From contig NZ_CP014517.1 in NCBI RefSeq assembly GCF_001577265.1, positions 2,888,501-2,952,500 of the forward strand: a stretch of DNA of 64,000 nt, given 5' to 3'. The notes below the pieces were generated by a model. The model had not been told where the DNA came from. It saw nothing but the letters and a program-made list of their open reading frames with translations, and did no database searches. Positions 54,007 through 63,692 of the stretch are shown here, piece by piece. This DNA comes from Variovorax sp. PAMC 28711 (GTDB lineage Bacteria > Pseudomonadota > Gammaproteobacteria > Burkholderiales > Burkholderiaceae_C). A program made the translations under genes and the position numbers. Within the stretch, counting starts at the first letter, position 1. Every line of letters begins with the position of its first letter.

Positions 54007-55197
54007 TCAGACGGGCAGCAGCTTGAGGTCGGCCACGCGTTCGATGAACCACAGCGCCGCGATCACGATGGCGAACGCCGAGCCGCCGCGCAACACGAGC
54101 GCCGAATAGCGTGACCAGCGGCGCACCGCCAGCAACACCGCGAGCACGATGCTCACGATGACGAGCTGCCCGCCCTCGACGCCCAGGTTGAACTGCAGCA
54201 GCGCCGACACGAAGCTGCCCGTCGGCAGGTCGAGTTCCGCCAGTACGCTCGCAAAGCCGAAGCCGTGGATGAGGCCGAACAGGAAAGTGACGAGGCGGCG
54301 ATGGCCGCGCAGCACCGGCACGATGTTGTCGACTGCGGCGACGATGATGGTGAGCGCGATGGCCGGCTCGATCACCCTCGGCGAGAGCGACACGATGCCG
54401 AGGCTGGCCAGCGCCAGCGTGATCGAATGGCCGAGCGTGAACAAGGTGACGATCGCCACCATCGGCCACACCGCCTCCGGCCAGCGCGCGACCGGTTTCC
54501 AGCCGGCGCCGGTGCGGACCAGCACTGCCGGCAGCAGCAGGCTGATGAGAAACAGGATGTGGTCGTAGCCGATCAGGATGTGGTGCACCCCATCGAAGAA
54601 GAACGCGGCGCCCGCCGAGCCGGACTTCGCCGCGGGCGCGCTCGTCGTGCTGGCACTTGCGTCGGCAGTCGAGTCGGCGCCGGTGCTCGCGGGCACGCCG
54701 ACCGCCACCCCGCCCGCCACGGGATCGAGCGATCGCACCGTCGGCGTCGCACCGCTGCCCATGTCCACGCGCAGCAGGCCGCGGTGCGTCGGGTCGACTT
54801 CCCGGAACAGGCGATAGTCGATGTCCAGCGTGTTGCCGCCCGGGCAGCGGCCCTGCAATTGCAGCACGAGGTACGTGCCGTCGACGCGGCTCTCCAGCGC
54901 AGGCGGCTGGGCCTCGGCCAGCGTGCACTTGTCTTGTTGCAGCACGAGATGCGACAGCGCGTACGCGCGGATGTCGTCCATTCGCGCTCTCACCTCACCC
55001 CAGCTCAGCTTCTGGTCTTCGTTGCGGTCGAGGTCGAGCACGGCGTCGAGGTCGCGCAGCGAAATGTCCCAGCGCAGCTGGAGCTGGTCGCCGGCGCGCT
55101 GCAATTGCAGATACGCATCGCTCGCCTTGTGGGCCTGCGCGGGCGTTGTCAGCACCGCGAACGCCAGCGCCAGGAGCAGCGAGACGACGCGCTTCAT
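54007..55197 (-). CDS. HupE/UreJ-like membrane protein with EF-hand domain
   Basis: A 396-residue membrane protein. Signal peptide 1-22 (cleavage QA-HK), a periplasmic domain (about 23-160) with a canonical EF-hand loop D57-R-N59-E-D61-Q-K-L-S-W-G-E68, a Ser/Ala/Thr linker (about 165-195), and about seven membrane segments (200-390). The HupE motif H206-x5-D212-H213 (HILIGYDH) is intact, but the second HupE motif reads IHGFGFASV at 310-318, without the glutamate that follows HG in nickel-transporting HupE. It could bind calcium and move or sense a metal. It is the last gene of a four-gene operon. Confidence 0.85.
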   Translation of the reverse strand: MKRVVSLLLALAFAVLTTPAQAHKASDAYLQLQRAGDQLQLRWDISLRDLDAVLDLDRNEDQKLSWGEVRARMDDIRAYALSHLVLQQDKCTLAEAQPPALESRVDGTYLVLQLQGRCPGGNTLDIDYRLFREVDPTHRGLLRVDMGSGATPTVRSLDPVAGGVAVGVPASTGADSTADASASTTSAPAAKSGSAGAAFFFDGVHHILIGYDHILFLISLLLPAVLVRTGAGWKPVARWPEAVWPMVAIVTLFTLGHSITLALASLGIVSLSPRVIEPAIALTIIVAAVDNIVPVLRGHRRLVTFLFGLIHGFGFASVLAELDLPTGSFVSALLQFNLGVEGGQLVIVSIVLAVLLAVRRWSRYSALVLRGGSAFAIVIAALWFIERVADLKLLPV

Positions 55198-56426
55198 CCG
55201 AGCGCCGCGTCGACGCGCGCATCGCGCAAGCCGATCTGTTGCATCAGCGTGCGGACTTCCTGCCGCGCAGCGTCGTCGTTGGCGGCGGCTGCGGCGCGCG
55301 CGTAGATCAGCAGGTCGATCGGCTCGCGCTGCAGCTGCACATTCAAGCGCGACAACGCGAGCGCCTTCTGCGGATCCTTCTGCACGTCGAGCGCGAACAT
55401 CGCATGTTCGCGCGCATGCAGCATCGCGGCGCCGGGGCGCAGCGCCGCCGCATCGAAGCGCGCACCCAGTTCCGCGAGATCGCGCGCGGCGGTTTCGCGT
55501 TGCGTCGGCGACAGTTTGTTTTGTTCGTCCAAGCGCTGCGTGGCGGTCACGATGCGCAGCAGCACCGCATCGCTGCGTGGCTCGGATTTGAGCAGCGGCA
55601 GCACTTCGGCAGGGCGTCGCTGGCCCAGCAGAAAATCGCTGTAGGCGATCACATCGTAGGCCGAGGCGTCGGCGCCGAGCGTCTGTCGGTAGGCCGCGTC
55701 GGCGGCTTTTGCGCGCCCTGCGAGTTCGTCGATTTCGGCCACGGTGGCCATGAGCCATTGGCGTGTCGAGGCCTGCGCCGGTGTTTTCAGCGGCGCGCTG
55801 TCGAGCAATTCCTGGAGCGCCTGGCGTGCCGCGTCGTGATCGCCCCGCAGCCCGGTGTTCTCCGCGAGGCACGCGATCGCATACAGGTTTTGCCGCAGTC
55901 GTTCGAGCGCGTGGCAAGCGAGATCGGAATCGGCGTAGCGGCCGCGCACCCGATGGATCGTGCCGAGCGTGAGCCAGCCCTGCGCATTGCCCGGGTTGGC
56001 GGCCAGTGCCAGCTTGAGGGTGCGTTCGGCGCCGTCGAAATCATGAAGGAACTGCGCCACGGTCGCGTGCATCACGAGGATCGCGTTCGGCGTGCTGGCC
56101 GAGAGCGGTTCCCACGCCCGCAGCACACCCAGCGCGTAACCGGCGTAGCGCGCGTCGCCCTGGGCACGCGCGAGGTCGAGATAGGATTTCGCGGCGGCGA
56201 GCGCCACCGGCTCGTCGCGCGGCCGCTGCACCAGCTCGCGGCGCAGCCTGCGTTCTTCACGCGACCAGCCCGCGACGGAGGGCAGGGTTTCGACGATCTC
56301 GCTGTCGTTCGACGGCACGCGCGGCGCAGCATGCGTCACCGTTGCCGCGACCGACAGCAAGAGAAAAAAGAGGACGCCCGCAGCGCGCCACCGGATGTCG
56401 GCGAAGCAGGTGCGGGCGCGGTTCAC
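55194..56426 (-). CDS. Secreted TPR protein of the HupE-like operon
   Basis: A 410-residue protein with a signal peptide (RWRAAGVLFFLLLSVAATV, cleavage near HAA) and helix-pair repeats (about 95-300) resembling TPR, e.g. AERTLKLALAANPGNAQGWLTLG. It is probably a periplasmic scaffold. Its stop overlaps the start of the HupE-like gene (55194-55197) and its start lies 13 bases after the lipoprotein gene. No enzymatic site was seen. Confidence 0.85.
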   Translation of the reverse strand: MNRARTCFADIRWRAAGVLFFLLLSVAATVTHAAPRVPSNDSEIVETLPSVAGWSREERRLRRELVQRPRDEPVALAAAKSYLDLARAQGDARYAGYALGVLRAWEPLSASTPNAILVMHATVAQFLHDFDGAERTLKLALAANPGNAQGWLTLGTIHRVRGRYADSDLACHALERLRQNLYAIACLAENTGLRGDHDAARQALQELLDSAPLKTPAQASTRQWLMATVAEIDELAGRAKAADAAYRQTLGADASAYDVIAYSDFLLGQRRPAEVLPLLKSEPRSDAVLLRIVTATQRLDEQNKLSPTQRETAARDLAELGARFDAAALRPGAAMLHAREHAMFALDVQKDPQKALALSRLNVQLQREPIDLLIYARAAAAANDDAARQEVRTLMQQIGLRDARVDAALG

Positions 56427-56439
56427 TCAGAAGATACCG

Positions 56440-56748
56440 TCAGGGCGTCGCGACCGGATCGTTGGTTTCCGATGTCGGCGCAGGGTCGAACTTCGCCACG
56501 TCGGCGGGGTCGTCGGTCTCGGAGCTCGTGTTCACGAGCGCCACCACGTAGGCGATGAAGGCGTCGTAGGCGCTGACCACCGGTGGCTGCGTCGGTTCGC
56601 CGCCGCCGGCCGGTGGCGTGGTGGCTGGCGGAGCGCTTCCGATCGGGAAGTACCCGCCGCCACCGCCGCCCCCACCGCAGGCCGTGAGGGCCAGCGCGAG
56701 GGCGAATGCCGATGCCAGCGGCACCAGGCGCAGGGATGTCTTGTTCAT
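56440..56748 (-). CDS. Small lipoprotein with poly-Gly stretch
   Basis: A 102-residue lipoprotein: signal peptide with lipobox LTAC (Cys24) followed by eight glycines, a proline/threonine-rich spacer and a C-terminal helix (SAYDAFIAYVVALVNTSS). The poly-Gly is a typical flexible linker after the lipid anchor. Its sole likely function is anchoring or interaction with the secreted proteins coded beside it. It sits 9 bases after DUF4331 and 13 before the TPR gene. Confidence 0.75.
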   Translation of the reverse strand: MNKTSLRLVPLASAFALALALTACGGGGGGGGYFPIGSAPPATTPPAGGGEPTQPPVVSAYDAFIAYVVALVNTSSETDDPADVAKFDPAPTSETNDPVATP

Positions 56749-56757
56749 GTCGACTCC

Positions 56758-58266
56758 TTAGCGTGCGGCTGCTGCGGCGTTGGTCGCGCCCGGCAGTGGC
56801 GTGTTGAGGTACGGGAACGTGGCCAGGAAGCCGGTGGCTGGCGTTTGCGCAACGCCATCGGTGATGGCCGCACCACCAGCCGGTGCGTCGGACGGCTTGC
56901 AGCCAACCTTGAGCGCATCGGCATCGCCGGTGAGGAAGCACAACGCGCCCATGGCCACACGCAGTTCGATGTCCACGATGTCGTCTCCCGGACGACGGCC
57001 GTTCGGGAAGCCCGCGTTGTCCTCGCCAGCCACGCCGAGCGTGTTCTGCGTTGCGATCGGTGTCGGCGCGATCGCGGTGTTCAGCCGGAGCATCTCCGAA
57101 GGCACCACGTTCGCAGGCTTGTTCACGCCTTCAATGCCGGTCAGGAAGGCGGCGATCAGGTCGGTCCGCGGGAAGTTCGTCGGTGCAGGCGCGCTCGGGA
57201 ACAGCTTCTGGATCAACGCCGGCAGCGTCGGGTTGGTCACGTAGTCGAGGAACTGCGCATCACCGCTCGGCTGCGAGGCGTTGAACTTGTCCTTGTCCTT
57301 CAAACCGATCACGACTTCGTTGACCAGCGGCATGCCGAGGCGCGACACCTGCGCCCAGGCGCCGCCATTGATCGACGCGGTGCCATGACCGCTCTTCGGT
57401 GGGTTGGCGATCAGCCGACCCTGGCGGGTGCTGGCCGTGGTCCAGCCGCCGATGATGGTCGAGCCACCGGCAGTCAGGCAGGCGGTCGGCACTTCGAGTT
57501 CGAGCGAGGTGATGTTCACGCCGGCCAGCGAATCGGTATTGCCACCGGTTGGGCCCAACGGATTCAGGTTGATCAGGTCGAAGATCGGGCCGAGCGCCAC
57601 GACGAACGGGTCCTTGCGCTGGCCGACGAAGACCTTGCCGGGGGCGCTGCAGCCCGGGATGTTCACTTCGTAGACATGCTGGGCGGCGTAGGTCGCGTAG
57701 CCGTTACCGGCGCCGAAAGTCTTCTCGCCGATGTTGTCGGTCGGCTTGTCGAACACGCTGCCGCCGGCGGTCTTGGTGAGCGACTCACCGGCGCTGCTGC
57801 GGCGCGGGCCGCGCACCACGCTCACGGTGTAGGTCTCGCGCAGGTTGCTGTTGCCCTGATCGGGCCCGGTGATGCCACCGGCTTGCACCAACGGGATCGA
57901 CACCGTCTTGCCGCCGACCGGCAGCGCGATGTCGCGCAGCGTGTTGGTGAAGCGGAACTGGAAGGTGATGTCTTCCTTGCTGTCCGCGTTGTTGTCGATG
58001 TGGATCTCGTACAGGCCGTTCGGGTCCATGTTGTAGAAGTTGGGTCCGCCGGCCGGGCCCTGGTAGGGCTGGTAGTCCGCGATCAGCGTCGTGTAGTCCG
58101 CGCGGGCGGGCTCGTAGCTGCGGAACATGTAGAAATCGGTCGCATCGAGCTTGGGCGAGCCGGCGATCGAAGGCGCCTCCCGGTGGCTGGATGCCAGCGC
58201 GCCGCCTGCGGCGATTGCGCAGAGTGTGACCATGCAGGTCCGAACAGAAAACCTTGAAATTTTCAT
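56758..58266 (-). CDS. Secreted DUF4331 protein
   Basis: A 502-residue secreted DUF4331 protein. Signal peptide MKISRFSVRTCMVTLCAI ends near ALA-SS, and the mature protein opens with the family hallmark SHREAPSIAGSPKLDATDFYMFRSYE. It is rich in beta strands and aspartates; the function of the family is not established to my knowledge. The start at 58266 has AAGGTG 6 bases upstream; ATG 58272 would leave no spacing. It heads a four-gene operon with a lipoprotein, TPR and HupE-like protein, 194 bases after ureG. Confidence 0.88.
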   Translation of the reverse strand: MKISRFSVRTCMVTLCAIAAGGALASSHREAPSIAGSPKLDATDFYMFRSYEPARADYTTLIADYQPYQGPAGGPNFYNMDPNGLYEIHIDNNADSKEDITFQFRFTNTLRDIALPVGGKTVSIPLVQAGGITGPDQGNSNLRETYTVSVVRGPRRSSAGESLTKTAGGSVFDKPTDNIGEKTFGAGNGYATYAAQHVYEVNIPGCSAPGKVFVGQRKDPFVVALGPIFDLINLNPLGPTGGNTDSLAGVNITSLELEVPTACLTAGGSTIIGGWTTASTRQGRLIANPPKSGHGTASINGGAWAQVSRLGMPLVNEVVIGLKDKDKFNASQPSGDAQFLDYVTNPTLPALIQKLFPSAPAPTNFPRTDLIAAFLTGIEGVNKPANVVPSEMLRLNTAIAPTPIATQNTLGVAGEDNAGFPNGRRPGDDIVDIELRVAMGALCFLTGDADALKVGCKPSDAPAGGAAITDGVAQTPATGFLATFPYLNTPLPGATNAAAAAR

Positions 58267-58460
58267 TGGCATCACCTTGGGTGTTGTGCGTTGAGTTGAG
58301 AAAGCGCGACGTGACCGGCTGCGTTTCACGCGCAATCGGCGGTCACATGGCTTACGTGACCAACTTCTCAACGGATTCACATTTCTTTGCAAAGGGTTCA
58401 TTTGCAGCACACAAAGATTTCTGACCGCGGGTATACCCGGCCATCCTGGCAGGGACCTGC
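58267..58460. promoter_or_regulatory. Leader region upstream of the DUF4331 operon
   Basis: A 194-base gap between ureG and the DUF4331 gene, both on the minus strand. It contains a 12-bp perfect palindrome CGGGTATACCCG at about 58428-58439 and an inverted repeat with TTTGC/GCAAA near 58385-58406. Neither is followed by a T-run on the minus strand. No sigma-70 hexamers stood out; a promoter for the operon is expected here. Confidence 0.35.
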
Positions 58461-59111
58461 TCAGCCCTCGGCCAGCATCCCGCGCGCTTCGATGAACGCG
58501 ACGACCTCGGCCACGCCGGTTTGGGTCTTCAGGTTGGTCATCACGTAAGGCCGCTGTTTGCGCATGCGCTTCGTGTCGGCTTCCATGATGTTCAAGTCAG
58601 CACCCACATACGGCGCGAGATCGGTCTTGTTGATGACGAACAGGTCGCTCTTGGTGATGCCGGGGCCGCCCTTGCGCGGGATTTTTTCGCCGGCCGCCAC
58701 GTCGATCACGTAGATCGTGAGGTCGCTCAGTTCGGGGCTGAAGGTGGCGGCCAGGTTGTCGCCGCCACTTTCGACGAACACCACGTCGGCTTCGGGAAAA
58801 TCGCCCAGCATGCGGTCGATGGCCTCGAGGTTGATCGACGCGTCTTCGCGGATCGCGGTGTGCGGGCAGCCGCCGGTTTCCACGCCCATGATGCGTTCGG
58901 CCGGCAGCGCGCCCGCGACCGTGAGGATGCGCTGGTCTTCCTTGGTGTAGATGTCGTTGGTGATCGCGATCAGGTCGTACTTGTCGCGCATCGCCTTGCA
59001 GAGCATCTCGAGCAGGGTGGTCTTGCCGGAGCCGACCGGCCCGCCGATGCCCACGCGCAGGGGCGGCAGTTTCTTGGTGCGGTTGGGGATGTGGTGCAGC
59101 GCGGAGGACAT
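58461..59111 (-). CDS. ureG: Urease accessory GTPase UreG
   Basis: Couples GTP hydrolysis to nickel delivery to urease. 216 residues with P-loop [12 protein letters not shown] (23-34), the nickel-binding CPH motif (C82-P-H84) in [30 protein letters not shown], and [13 protein letters not shown]. Complete. It lies 5 bases after ureF and is the last urease gene on this strand. Confidence 0.97.
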
Positions 59112-60405: not shown

Positions 60406-61266
60406 TCAGACGCGGCCGAGCAGCTCGGCCTTCTTGGTGTTGAACTCGTCGTCGTTCAGGATGCCCTTGGCATGCAGGTCGGCGAGTTTTTCGATCGTGG
60501 CGAAGATGTCTTGCTGGCGCATCGACACGCTGCTGTTGCTGTTGCTGTTGCTGCTGTAGTTCGACGGTGCCGGCGGCGGCATGCCGTTGGCGGAAACGAC
60601 CGGCAAGCGCGCCACGTCGATCAGCCCGTACTGGCTGTTGAATCCCAACGTGCCGTCTTGCGACTGCTGCTGCGAGAAGCCGCCGATCTGGTGGTCGAGC
60701 GTGTCGTACACCGTCACCTCGCCATTCAATTCGATCGCGAGGCGCTGCGCCTGCGCGAAATACGCGTAACGCACGCCGTTCTGCGCACCGGTGCTGTTGG
60801 GCCAGCGCAGGTCGGCCGGCCACCAGTCGCCCGAAGTGCCGGGTGCCGGGGGCACGAACAGGCTCGACGCGCCGAAGGTGCTGGAAGACGCGTCGCTGTA
60901 GCCGCCGCTCTGCGTGTGGCCGCCGTAGCCGGTCTGCGATTGCCCGCTGCCGTAGCCGCCCTGGCTCTGCGACTGGAAGCTGCCGCTGCGCAGCAGGTCG
61001 GGCTGGCTCAGCACGAGGCTCGACAACTCGGAACACAGGCCGTCGACGCGGCCCTTCAGGTGGTTGTTGAACATGTCGGACACCATGATCATCCCGCCGC
61101 GCATCCACTGGCCCGAGCCCGAAAATTCCGGATGGCTGAACTGCGCCTGGTAGCCGTTCCCGTGGATCACGGAATCGAGCATGCTGAGCGTCGCGTCGAC
61201 GCTGAAGCCGTGGCGCTGCGCGATGTCATCGATGACTTGTTGGCCGGCGGAAGAAAGTGGTCGCAT
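60406..61266 (-). CDS. SHOCT-domain protein inside the urease cluster
   Basis: A 286-residue protein with no signal peptide. The N-terminal part (about 1-90) is a soluble domain starting [16 protein letters not shown], followed by a Gly/Ser/Gln-rich low-complexity stretch (about 95-130), a second region, an Asn/Ser run with SNSNSNSS (encoded by short GCTGTT repeats at about 60529-60557) and a C-terminal SHOCT motif (about 255-286: [21 protein letters not shown]). SHOCT usually tethers oligomers. It is not a known urease gene and splits ureC from ureE. Confidence 0.85.
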
Positions 61267-61339: not shown

Positions 61340-61355
61340 ACTTTTGGAAATCACC

Positions 61356-61580
61356 ATGTCGGCACTCAAACTCACCCAGATCGGCAATTCCGTCGGTGTG
61401 ATCCTGCCCAAGGAAGTGCTGGCCCGGCTCAAGGTGGAGAAGGGCGACACGCTCTTCATGACGGAGGCGGCGAACGGGGTCACGCTGACGCCGTACGATC
61501 CCGACATCGATGAGCAACTGAAGCTTGGCCGCGAATTCATGCGTGGGTACCGCGACACGTTTCACCAGCTCGCCAAATGA
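61356..61580 (+). CDS. AbrB/MazE-type antitoxin
   Basis: A 74-residue SpoVT/AbrB-fold DNA-binding antitoxin: LKLTQIGNSVGVILPKEVLARLKVEKGDTLF, then a C-terminal acidic tail (DPDIDEQLKLGREFMRGYRDTFHQL) that should wrap the toxin. The ATG at 61356 is preferred to a TTG at 61344. It overlaps the toxin gene by 4 bases. It lies on the strand opposite to the urease genes. Confidence 0.93.
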   Translation: MSALKLTQIGNSVGVILPKEVLARLKVEKGDTLFMTEAANGVTLTPYDPDIDEQLKLGREFMRGYRDTFHQLAK

Positions 61581-61966
61581 ACCAGTGGCGTTGGCTCGGC
61601 CAGCACGCGCTGATGTTGCTGCACGACGAAAGCCTGGCTGAACATGGCGGCGCGGCAGGGCTGCGTGACGAAGGGTTGCTGCAATCGGCACTCGCCCGCC
61701 CACTCCATCTGGTCGCCTACGGACAGCCGGATCTTTCGGACCTCGCGGCGGCGTACGGCGTCGGGCTTGCCAAGAACCATCTCTTCGTGGATGGCAACAA
61801 ACGGGCCGCTTTTCTCGGCGTCGGTTTGTTCCTTGCCTTGAACGGACAGCGCCTGGTGGCGACGCAAGCCGAAGCCACGTTGACGATGTTCGCTGTGGCA
61901 GCCAGCGAGATCGACGAACCGACTTTCGCGTCGTGGATTCGATCCCACTTGCAAGCACGAAACTGA
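61577..61966 (+). CDS. Doc family (Fic) toxin
   Basis: A 129-residue Doc toxin. The Fic motif reads HLFVDGNKRAAF (His68 to Arg76), equal to the Doc consensus HxFxDGNKR. In P1 Doc this motif phosphorylates elongation factor Tu. It starts inside the antitoxin stop (ATGA) and ends 7 bases before the convergent end of ureC. The active-site residues are intact, so it is likely functional. Pairing of Doc with an AbrB-type antitoxin rather than Phd is known but less common. Confidence 0.93.
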   Translation: MNQWRWLGQHALMLLHDESLAEHGGAAGLRDEGLLQSALARPLHLVAYGQPDLSDLAAAYGVGLAKNHLFVDGNKRAAFLGVGLFLALNGQRLVATQAEATLTMFAVAASEIDEPTFASWIRSHLQARN

Positions 61967-61973
61967 CCGCTGC

Positions 61974-63692
61974 TCAGAACAGGAAATACCGCTGCGTCAT
62001 CGGCAGCGACGTCGCCGGCTCGCACGTCAGCAGGTTGCCGTCGGCGCGCACCGCGTAGGTCTGCGGATCGATCTCCATCTTCGGCACCATGCCGTTGTGG
62101 ACCATGTGTTGCTTGCGCAGGCCGCGGATGTTCTTCACCGCGCTCAAGGTCTTCTGCAGGCGGTAACGTTCACCGATGCCGTTCGCCAGGCCGGCTTGCG
62201 AGACGAAGGTCAGCGAGCTTCTCGCGAGCGAGCCGCCGTAGGCGCCGAACATCGGGCGGTAGTGCACTGGTTGCGGGGTCGGGATCGAGGCGCTCGGGTC
62301 GCCCATCGCGGCCATCGCGATGGTGCCGCCCTTGAGGATGGTGAAGGGTTTCACCCCGAAGAAGGCCGGCTTCCACACCACCAGGTCCGCCCACTTGCCG
62401 ACTTCGATGCTGCCCACTTCGTGCGCGATGCCGTGTGCGATGGCCGGGTTGATCGTGTACTTGGCGATGTAGCGCTTCGCGCGGAAGTTGTCGTTGCGCG
62501 CGCTGTCCTCGGGCAAGGTGCCGCGCTGCTGCTTCATCTTGTGCGCGGTTTGCCAGGTGCGGATGATGACCTCGCCGACGCGGCCCATGGCCTGCGAGTC
62601 GGAGCTGAACATGCTGATGGCGCCCAGGTCGTGCAGGATGTCTTCGGCCGCGATGGTTTCCTTGCGGATACGCGATTCGGCAAAGGCCAGGTCTTCCGCG
62701 ATGCCGGCATCCAGGTGATGGCACACCATGAGCATGTCGACGTGTTCGTCGAGCGTGTTCACGGTGTAGGGCATCGTCGGATTGGTGGACGAGGGCAGGA
62801 AGTTGTCTTCGCCCACGACGCGCAGGATGTCCGGCGCATGGCCACCGCCGGCGCCTTCGGTGTGGAACGCGCAAATGGCGCGGCCGCCCACGGCGGCGAT
62901 GGTGTTCTCCACGAAGCCCGACTCGTTCAGCGTGTCCGAATGAATCGCCACCTGCGTGTCGGTGGCATCGGCCACGTCGAGGCAGTTGCTGATCGCAGCG
63001 GGCGTGGTGCCCCAGTCTTCGTGCAGCTTGAGGCCGATCACGCCGGCGTCGATCTGCTCGTGCAGCGCGGCCGGCAGGCTGGCGTTGCCCTTGCCGAGAA
63101 AGCCGAGGTTCATCGGAAACGCATCGGCGGCCTGCAACATGCGCTCGATGTGCCAGGGGCCGGGCGTCGCGGTCGTGGCGAACGTGCCGGTGGCCGGGCC
63201 GGTGCCGCCACCCAGCATCGTGGTCACGCCCGACGAGAGCGCCTCCTCGATCTGCTGCGGACAGATGAAATGGATGTGGCTGTCGATGCCGCCGGCCGTC
63301 ACGATGTTGCCTTCGCAGCTGATCACTTCGGTGCCGGGGCCGATCACGATGTCCACGCCCGGTTGCACGTCGGGGTTGCCGGCCTTGCCGATGGCCACGA
63401 TGCGCCCGCCCTTCAAGCCGATGTCGGCCTTGACGATGCCCCAATGATCGATGATCAGCGCGTTGGTCATGACCGTGTCGACGGCGCCCTGGGCGCGCGT
63501 CATTTGCGACTGCGCCATGCCGTCGCGGATCGTCTTGCCGCCGCCGAACTTCACTTCTTCGCCGTACGCGCCGGCGCGCAGCGTGTAGTCGGCTTCGACT
63601 TCGACGATCAGGTCGGTGTCGGCCAGCCGCACACGGTCGCCCACGGTGGGTCCGAAGATTTCCGCATACGCGCGGCGTCCGATCGTTGCCAT
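61974..63692 (-). CDS. ureC: Urease alpha subunit UreC
   Basis: Catalytic urease subunit, 572 residues. Nickel ligands H139 and H141 ([11 protein letters not shown]), the carbamylated Lys222 (GLKLHEDWG), [12 protein letters not shown], and the flap [16 protein letters not shown] are all present. It begins by overlapping the ureB stop by 1 base. Its 3' end is followed on the opposite strand by the Doc toxin. Confidence 0.98.

Follow-up and report, generated by a model that had tools for sequence, protein, structure and literature searches.

The minus strand of the window, the 64,000-nucleotide stretch of DNA that was analysed, carries all four genes of the cassette described here, which encode a DUF4331 protein, a small lipoprotein, a tetratricopeptide repeat (TPR) protein and a HupE/UreJ-2 permease (Table 1). 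The spacing reported in an earlier note, 9- and 13-base gaps and then a 4-base overlap before the permease gene, was borne out by the window coordinates, and sequence reading together with Pfam agreed with its statement that all products, the eight-glycine lipoprotein included, are exported or membrane proteins. Signal peptides and the lipobox were read from the sequence by eye and cleavage was predicted via the A-x-A rule; in the DUF4331 protein and in the permease, the signal peptide seems to have A-x-A as its last residues. The note had known of no function for DUF4331 or for this combination of genes, and none was described in the literature that we searched, where DUF4331 was named nowhere and no description of a function of this operon was found.

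Table 1. Features of the cassette and its upstream flank (window positions; a slash marks predicted cleavage)
Feature	Position	Strand	Details
HupE/UreJ-2 permease with exported N-terminal Ang-1-type domain	54007..55197	-	396 aa; PF13795; model match 9gce
EF-hand-type loop DRNEDQKLSWGE	54994..55029	-	12 residues, within the Ang-1-type domain
His1 codon of the predicted mature permease (A-Q-A/H)	55129..55131	-	predicted cleavage AQA/HKASD
Exported TPR protein	55194..56426	-	GTG start, 410 aa; weak TPR_16
Small lipoprotein	56440..56748	-	102 aa, lipobox
DUF4331 protein	56758..58266	-	ATG start, 502 aa, exported, first gene; PF14224; kept in relatives
Ser-Ser-His codons, predicted mature DUF4331 residues 1-3	58183..58191	-	ATCUN-type Cu/Ni-binding pattern; A-x-A/SSH in relatives
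ECF-sigma-type promoter motif TGAATCC-N16-CGTA	58353..58379	-	86 nt before the DUF4331 start codon, between ureG and DUF4331
ureG, upstream neighbour	58461..59111	-	CobW/HypB/UreG domain; shown for context and not counted as part of the system

The C-terminal part of the permease matched PF13795 (158.5 bits, cut-off 24.5, residues 199-360). The protein shares a superfamily with the canonical HupE/UreJ nickel permeases (PF04955), but is of the PF13795 type and has a large exported domain headed by His1. A Foldseek search with a model of this domain returned Ang-1 (9gce) as the top PDB match (E 2.3e-5, probability 1.00, TM 0.61 on target, 19% identity), followed by zinc-bound ZrgA and PA4063, and in the model three helices separate strands 2 and 3, in keeping with the description of Ang-1. 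A sequence-profile search with the domain did not recover Ang-1. The search pattern for a His after the signal peptide fitted 52 of 54 relatives, with Ala before His in each; of the two that did not fit, L093 reads AQA/HTAST and the gene call of L133 lacks the N terminus. His1 was also invariant in alignment A3, the rows of which were chosen by that His.

This organization is similar to that of the Anglerase Ang-1 with HupE/UreJ-2 (RbAng-1a, PDB 9GCE; PMC12537917), in which an exported beta-sandwich with an N-terminal His after the signal peptide is followed by a HupE/UreJ-2 permease. It differs in that the permease is here within a four-gene cassette and has an EF-hand-type loop. The earlier description of the permease as an EF-hand protein stands in so far as the 12-residue loop keeps its first Asp and last Glu without exception across 37 aligned permeases and is placed by the model between the helices at 25-32 and 44-49, but Pfam gave no EF-hand match for it. 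The terms DUF4331, tetratricopeptide, EF-hand and calcium never occur in the main text of PMC12537917.

The DUF4331 protein matched PF14224 along the full profile (491.7 bits, residues 26-490, profile positions 1-421 of 421). The family is large, with at least 8000 significant matches in one protein search, this being all 8000 of the scored candidates. Based on the predicted cleavage site, the mature protein probably starts with Ser-Ser-His, a pattern of copper or nickel binding, the Ser and His of which were invariant in 13 cross-phylum sequences. The large mature protein (477 residues as modelled) has many invariant residues and no clear structural relative of it was found, features that would also suit an enzyme or an adhesin for which the metal genes only supply a cofactor. 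We consider such a role improbable, as nothing positive indicates catalysis and the conserved N-terminal Ser-x-His lies in a low-confidence, probably exposed stretch of the model. In the lipoprotein, which had no Pfam match, the lipobox and its eight glycines are followed by a Gly-rich linker and, towards the C terminus, acidic (E/D)-T-x-(E/D)-P motifs. The sole Pfam match of the TPR protein was to TPR_16, below threshold (22.1 bits, cut-off 32.7).

Of 61 genomes of the genus, 23 had a strong DUF4331 match and precisely these 23 had a strong permease match (E cut-offs of 1e-90 and 1e-130, respectively, chosen once strong and weak matches were seen to be widely separated), a co-occurrence that is beyond chance, and a TPR orthologue was present in 22 of these 23. 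In a phylum sample of 299 genomes, 11 of the 13 with a strong DUF4331 match had a PF13795 gene on the same strand 1.9-2.4 kb downstream. The TPR and permease genes came directly after DUF4331 in 52 of the 69 named loci having at least 3.6 kb downstream; a DUF4198 protein took that place in four others and neither arrangement was found in the remaining 13. Versions of the cassette also occur in Actinomycetota, Bacteroidota and Cyanobacteriota, those of Streptomyces and Nostoc with a NicO permease. The DUF4331, TPR and permease families co-occur across genomes, including in non-urease contexts, and the sequence comparisons support the view that the cassette is a real, conserved operon of exported and membrane proteins.

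The position of the cassette after ureG had led the earlier note to suggest a link to nickel or urease, and the two halves of that suggestion fared differently. Nickel gained support from the location of nikR in relatives, described below. The idea that the cassette belongs to the urease operon as an added section that supplies this urease with nickel is by contrast largely refuted, and we regard it as very improbable. Although the cassette lies on the same strand directly after ureG in G000, G026 and G055, these are the only three close relatives with this adjacency among 40 DUF4331 loci of related genomes, and 78 named loci (flanks up to 10 kb) gave no match to UreB, C, E, F or G. In addition, the urease cluster in the window has its own canonical ureJ (PF04955, 174.5 bits) next to ureA, and the cassette has a separate promoter motif. 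Urease is likely to be one user of the nickel and not the reason for the operon.

The promoter motif was found in 59 of 73 DUF4331 upstream regions versus 0 of 73 reversed sequences, and upstream of a TonB receptor in 15 of 28 versus 1 of 28. In this genome it additionally lies upstream of a sigma/anti-sigma pair, of a fasciclin gene and of the TonB-receptor operon. Within the genus, the motif preceded the receptor at 15 of the 16 receptor loci in genomes with the sigma gene and at 0 of the 6 in genomes that lack it. We interpret the motif as a probable marker of an ECF sigma regulon common to the cassette, the unlinked receptor operon and the sigma/anti-sigma genes, and the conserved partners that could not be seen by the earlier note are this receptor and the ECF sigma factor. 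The sigma factor has other duties, because its gene was also present in 20 of the 38 genomes of the genus without strong DUF4331.

The anti-sigma factor in this genome is of the RskA type (PF10099, 84.8 bits). Anti-sigma types vary in relatives (one member per cluster): that of Janthinobacterium is NrsF (198.1 bits) and that of L102 a ChrR-like cupin (63.5 bits). Alongside the Janthinobacterium cassettes there is also a molybdopterin-oxidoreductase/cytochrome b561 pair. The products of mpt70 and mpt83 are fasciclin proteins. According to PMC7509140, both genes belong to the SigK-RskA regulon, which is comparable in having an ECF sigma factor with an RskA-type anti-sigma and, in this genome, a fasciclin-domain target. 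The motif here, however, also precedes a TonB receptor and a metal cassette, and the sigma factor is likened to SigK via its RskA-type partner only. This resemblance, the other anti-sigma types and the Janthinobacterium oxidoreductase pair would be compatible as well with a regulon for oxidative or envelope stress, in which a SigK/RskA-like module sequesters the metals that oxidative stress sets free, or exports them. We think this unlikely, as TonB receptors import, nikR is linked to the system, and certain HupE/UreJ members mediate nickel transport (PMC2667541).

The receptor and DUF4331 were associated both in the genus (18/5/5/33 genomes with both, DUF4331 only, receptor only and neither; p 8.8e-7) and in the phylum sample (7/6/19/267; p 2e-5) by Fisher tests in which related genomes are treated as independent. 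DUF4331 genomes without the receptor numbered 5 of 23 and 6 of 13, respectively, which speaks against a TonB-linked system. With the same test and treatment of related genomes, DUF4331 and nikR were weakly associated in the genus (9/14/5/33, p 0.028). The receptor family is often near the cassette and beside nikR in relatives, and nickel is the best-supported substrate because 16 of 25 nikR-bearing genomes have nikR at a distance of 200-1005 nt from either the receptor or the cassette; in G033, G037, G038, G042 and G044 it comes after the permease gene, in the same orientation. NicO proteins include exporters, so the direction of transport is not fixed by family alone, and we infer both the identity of the metal and its direction. 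A receptor that adjoins nikR, an extracytoplasmic metal-binding protein and a nickel/cobalt-type permease are together reminiscent of NikR-linked TonB-dependent nickel uptake of the FrpB4 type and of nickel-binding DUF4198 (PMC12537917). The differences are that the receptor in DUF4331 genomes of the genus mostly has the ECF promoter motif and is unlinked in this genome, and that there are additional components in DUF4331, the TPR protein and the lipoprotein.

An N-terminal X-X-His has an affinity for Cu(II) that is no lower than that for Ni(II). This affinity, the zinc-bound structural matches of the permease domain and the fact that the receptor's PDB sequence matches at E 0.001 were only to the B12 receptor BtuB, over part of the receptor length, raise the prospect that the uptake architecture is the same and its physiological metal copper, or cobalt or zinc. 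Among the observations that count against nickel uptake, the studied Ang-1, RbAng-1a, binds copper (Kd 74 nM for Cu2+) tighter than nickel (220 nM for Ni2+; PMC12537917), the genome of this window had no nikR match, and the association of DUF4331 with nikR in the genus is only weak. Copper, cobalt or zinc is nevertheless a rather doubtful choice given that nikR adjoins the receptor or cassette in those 16 genomes, that the permeases come from the nickel/cobalt families HupE/UreJ and NicO, and that the substitute partner DUF4198 binds nickel with 18 nM and, in the one protein studied, prefers it over copper (PMC12537917).

Together, these data favor a TonB-linked system for transition-metal acquisition, most likely of nickel, that is under ECF sigma control and whose secreted, periplasmic and inner-membrane components are encoded by the cassette, a reading to which we assign a probability of roughly 0.55 and for which the support is all computational, from sequences and models. 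Metal shortage or an envelope signal would cause the RskA-type anti-sigma to release the sigma factor. DUF4331, for which we infer a role in metal acquisition, would be exported, reside in the periplasm or on the cell surface and capture metal via its Ser-Ser-His N terminus or another site, while the TonB receptor would carry metal across the outer membrane. The acidic motifs of the lipoprotein may tether DUF4331 and/or the TPR protein, a putative periplasmic scaffold, near the outer membrane, and the permease would take up the metal with His1 and move it inward.

To our knowledge, the passage of nickel over the outer membrane and periplasm of Gram-negative bacteria is known in few organisms. 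The cassette seems to provide one half, secreted and in the inner membrane, of a trace-metal uptake system that had no name before, with the gene for the outer-membrane receptor elsewhere in the genome. These results connect the large DUF4331 family with an ECF sigma factor, with a TonB receptor and with a permease whose metal-binding domain is of a type known from crystallography, and so offer a directly testable function for DUF4331, the TPR protein and the small lipoprotein. They also suggest that ECF control was gained by a nikR-linked receptor when the cassette was present, a change of regulation that can be followed within one genus.

More tentatively, we speculate that DUF4331 could be a protein metallophore, delivered to the surface for nickel capture, with a free Ser-Ser-His that binds Ni(II)/Cu(II) and hands the metal to a dedicated TonB receptor, and with the lipoprotein as its tether; hemophores serving heme receptors provide the analogy. 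If this speculation is correct, the differing surface routes of each group would point to a widespread, undescribed class of metal acquisition. DUF4331 of Adhaeribacter has a type IX sorting tail, type II secretion genes adjoin it in Rhodobacterales, and that of Streptomyces has a C-terminal membrane segment and is accompanied by a sortase gene.

The four-gene layout first described for the cassette, in which two gaps measure 9 and 13 bases and one overlap 4 bases, was confirmed. Pfam searches assigned the first gene product to PF14224 (DUF4331, 491.7 bits) and the last, the permease, to PF13795 (158.5 bits); for the TPR protein the match, to TPR_16, was weak, and for the lipoprotein there was none. 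NCBIfam added nothing above its cut-offs. The genome holding the window is a single contig of 4,316,152 bases. Among the named matches listed, the closest DUF4331 loci were from Xenophilus, Variovorax and Pseudacidovorax, and the closest protein among the matches listed was 94% identical.

The four-gene cassette is conserved. Searches of the 101 related genomes (E 0.001) identified DUF4331 and the TPR protein in 30 genomes each and the permease in 40. Strong matches to DUF4331 and to the permease fell in an identical set of 23 of the 61 genus genomes, all of which had the TPR protein except G012, which is 62% complete; further genus genomes had weak matches only, to DUF4331 in G023, G027 and G028 and to the permease in eight. 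The 80 named loci around DUF4331 are biased towards close relatives, being the best 80 of 542 matching stretches. A DUF4331 ORF was recovered in 78 of them and at least 3.6 kb of downstream sequence was available in 69, of which 52 had same-strand TPR and permease genes immediately 3' of DUF4331 (47 with an intervening small ORF), four had a DUF4198 gene in their place (all Pfam-confirmed) and 13 had neither directly 3'. In a phylum sample of 299 genomes, the window's genome among them, DUF4331 was present in 17 and strong in 13; 11 of these 13 (exceptions G495 and G274) had a same-strand PF13795 gene 1.9–2.4 kb downstream, the overall frequency of PF13795 being 81/299.

Versions of the cassette also cross phylum boundaries. 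Of 32 plasmid records with DUF4331, 12 were examined, one Variovorax record being unannotated. Based on annotation, the gene order was DUF4331-small protein-TPR-HupE in Marinobacter and DUF4331-class F sortase-TPR-nickel transporter in Streptomycetaceae, while an Adhaeribacter plasmid had DUF4331 with a TonB receptor and TPR. A Nostoc plasmid carried DUF4331-TPR-permease, and one from Lichenicola carried DUF4331-protein-HupE, the TPR matches of the middle protein all being sub-threshold. In three Rhodobacterales plasmids (L156, L157, L159) DUF4331 and a small lipoprotein adjoined type II secretion genes, with no TPR or permease gene in the stretch shown. The Adhaeribacter DUF4331 has a type IX sorting domain at its C-terminal end. 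Judging from these gene neighbours and domains, DUF4331 seems to reach the cell surface, or pass beyond it, by a route that varies between groups. In Pseudoalteromonas, DUF4331 comes after an ECF sigma and anti-sigma pair.

As judged from sequence, the cassette has its own promoter motif and is part of a predicted regulon. The motif TG(A/C)ATC(C/T)-N15-17-CGTA occurred upstream of DUF4331 in 52 of 73 sequences, each of at most 200 nt; dinucleotide shuffles averaged 0.01, with a maximum of 1. A looser form was found in 59/73 upstreams versus 0/73 reversed, and in 21/34 versus 0/34 reversed in a second set partly overlapping the first; the promoter motif was also kept in the related genomes G026 and G055. 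Genome-wide, TGMATCC-N16-CGTA occurred 11 times, and not at all when read backwards; four of these sites lay within 140 nt 5' of an accepted gene. In Janthinobacterium, cassettes adjoin ECF sigma and NrsF-type anti-sigma genes (L103, L104, L110, L113, L116, L117, L119, L125, L128; 198.1 bits for the anti-sigma of L119, the member tested), and L113 additionally encodes a molybdopterin oxidoreductase paired with a cytochrome b561.

Promoter sites and neighbouring features. L numbers are DNA stretches around genes under study.
Feature	Location	Strand	Remark
ECF-type promoter motif before DUF4331	window 58353-58379		
Accepted motif site 1	upstream of DUF4331 cassette		
Accepted motif site 2	upstream of ECF sigma gene		with RskA-type anti-sigma
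Accepted motif site 3	upstream of fasciclin gene		
Accepted motif site 4	upstream of three-gene run		last gene is the TonB receptor
DUF3455 gene	L178:4980-5534	+	window's genome; divergent from sigma gene
Gene annotated DUF3455	L155:13561-14109	-	near Marinobacter cassette
Apparent second TonB receptor, two further ORFs and DUF4198-like protein	L181:5643-9999		divergent from receptor operon; DUF4198-like protein has His after A-x-A, 31.9 bits, just under the cut-off of 34
SHOCT-domain protein gene	window 60406-61266	-	lies between the ureC and ureE genes of the urease cluster
MazE-type antitoxin (34.1 bits) and Fic/DOC protein (51.4 bits) genes	window 61344-61966	+	two small genes adjoining ureC, on the opposite strand
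Rfam 5_ureB_sRNA match (99 bits)	window 63244-63529	+	antisense within ureC
Canonical HupE/UreJ permease of the urease cluster (174.5 bits)	L185:15-946	-	just right of window

On gene content, the sigma factor, the receptor and the cassette travel together. The receptor family was encoded in 26 of 78 named DUF4331 loci, a relative 33% identical adjoins the Adhaeribacter DUF4331, and in ten genus genomes the receptor lay within 6 kb of the cassette. Within the genus, 18 genomes had both DUF4331 and receptor, 5 and 5 had one alone and 33 had neither (Fisher p 8.8e-7, related genomes not being independent); the corresponding counts in the phylum sample were 7, 6, 19 and 267 (p 2e-5). The loose motif preceded the receptor in 15/28 loci versus 1/28 reversed, four of the 28 having no scorable site because the plug could not be located. 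Of the 22 genus receptors, 16 are in genomes that have the sigma gene and 15 of these carry the motif, and none of the 6 in sigma-negative genomes does; the one sigma-positive genome lacking it, G058, also lacks DUF4331. The sigma gene was found in 39/61 genus genomes, 19/23 with DUF4331 and 20/38 without, and the latter figure indicates that the sigma factor has other duties.

In the permease model (mean pLDDT 89) a beta-sandwich, whose strands 2 and 3 are separated by three helices, precedes the permease helices. A Foldseek search of the PDB ranked 9gce first, which is the Ang-1 domain from a HupE/UreJ-2 protein; two zinc proteins, ZrgA and PA4063, came next. The EF-hand-type loop that had been noticed in the permease would, on this model, lie between the first two helices of the Ang-1-type domain. 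Across 37 sequences the loop's first Asp and last Glu were invariant, and the same alignment showed no variation at His184, His191, His235 and His289 in the permease portion. According to passages of PMC12537917, Ang-1 binds Cu and Ni, with Cu at His1 in the crystal, and DUF4198 is a nickel-binding protein with TonB receptors and NikR among its neighbours; the paper's main text has no mention of DUF4331, tetratricopeptide, EF-hand or calcium.

A His followed the A-x-A site in 52 of 54 permease relatives, those fitting the search pattern, and likewise in the permeases of the Nostoc and Streptomyces versions, which are NicO proteins. In DUF4331, a small residue-x-Ala followed by (Ser/Ala)-Ser-His-Arg-(Glu/Asp)-x-Pro was present in 73 of 79 ORFs, 72 of them with Ser-Ser-His; of the rest, one contains SSHREAP but has a late-called start, and in the other 5 the region is missing or was left out of the ORF call. 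The first Ser and the His were invariant in 13 DUF4331 proteins from Pseudomonadota (three classes), Actinomycetota, Bacteroidota and Cyanobacteriota, and the PF14224 domain starts at the first Ser of Ser-Ser-His. If cleavage occurs at A-x-A, the predicted mature N terminus would be X-X-His, the ATCUN pattern, which binds Cu(II) and Ni(II). The cleavage site of the Adhaeribacter protein is less clear since the preceding residue is not Ala. In the AlphaFold model of DUF4331 (mean pLDDT 81, pTM 0.87), residues 1–10 had a mean pLDDT of 47, as expected of an exposed end.

The 58 small proteins compared (54 from clusters, window included, and four from plasmids) all fitted a permissive lipobox pattern. 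Gly directly followed the lipobox Cys in 55, which would favour the outer membrane, and 48 had at least two (E/D)P motifs at any position beyond the Cys, with one in 8 and none in 2. Our guess is that the lipoprotein is a tether.

Whether the metal is nickel was considered from the distribution of nikR. NikR_C (PF08753) was present in 25 of the 101 relatives. In 16 of the 25, nikR lay 200–1005 nt from the receptor, permease or DUF4331 gene; its distance to the receptor was 12.9 kb in G056, and eight genomes had it near none of the three, seven of these having no receptor match at E 1e-100 and the eighth, G009, a fragmentary nikR match. The gene was 3' of the permease on the same strand in G033, G037, G038, G042 and G044, and 5' of DUF4331 in G039. 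Beside the cassette, three named Variovorax-group loci had a nikR-like gene after the permease (L066, Pfam-confirmed), before DUF4331 (L079) or divergent from it (L091). Portions of PMC2667541 describe certain HupE/UreJ members as mediating nickel transport and use nikR adjacency to assign nickel specificity. However, the window's genome had no nikR match, and the Ang-1 studied prefers copper in vitro, as stated in part of PMC12537917. The published open-access papers searched included none on DUF4331 or PF14224. The parts of the cassette are known kinds of machinery, whose probable role is TonB-linked metal uptake, and neither their combination nor the role of DUF4331 was found described in that literature. 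That DUF4331 acts as a metallophore is a bold case that we consider rather unlikely.

In the adjacent urease cluster, the MazE-type and Fic/DOC genes likely form a toxin-antitoxin pair, and the 5_ureB_sRNA match probably reflects conserved urease coding sequence, not an RNA. The canonical HupE/UreJ permease gene of this cluster adjoins the gene for the gamma subunit of urease (162.5 bits).
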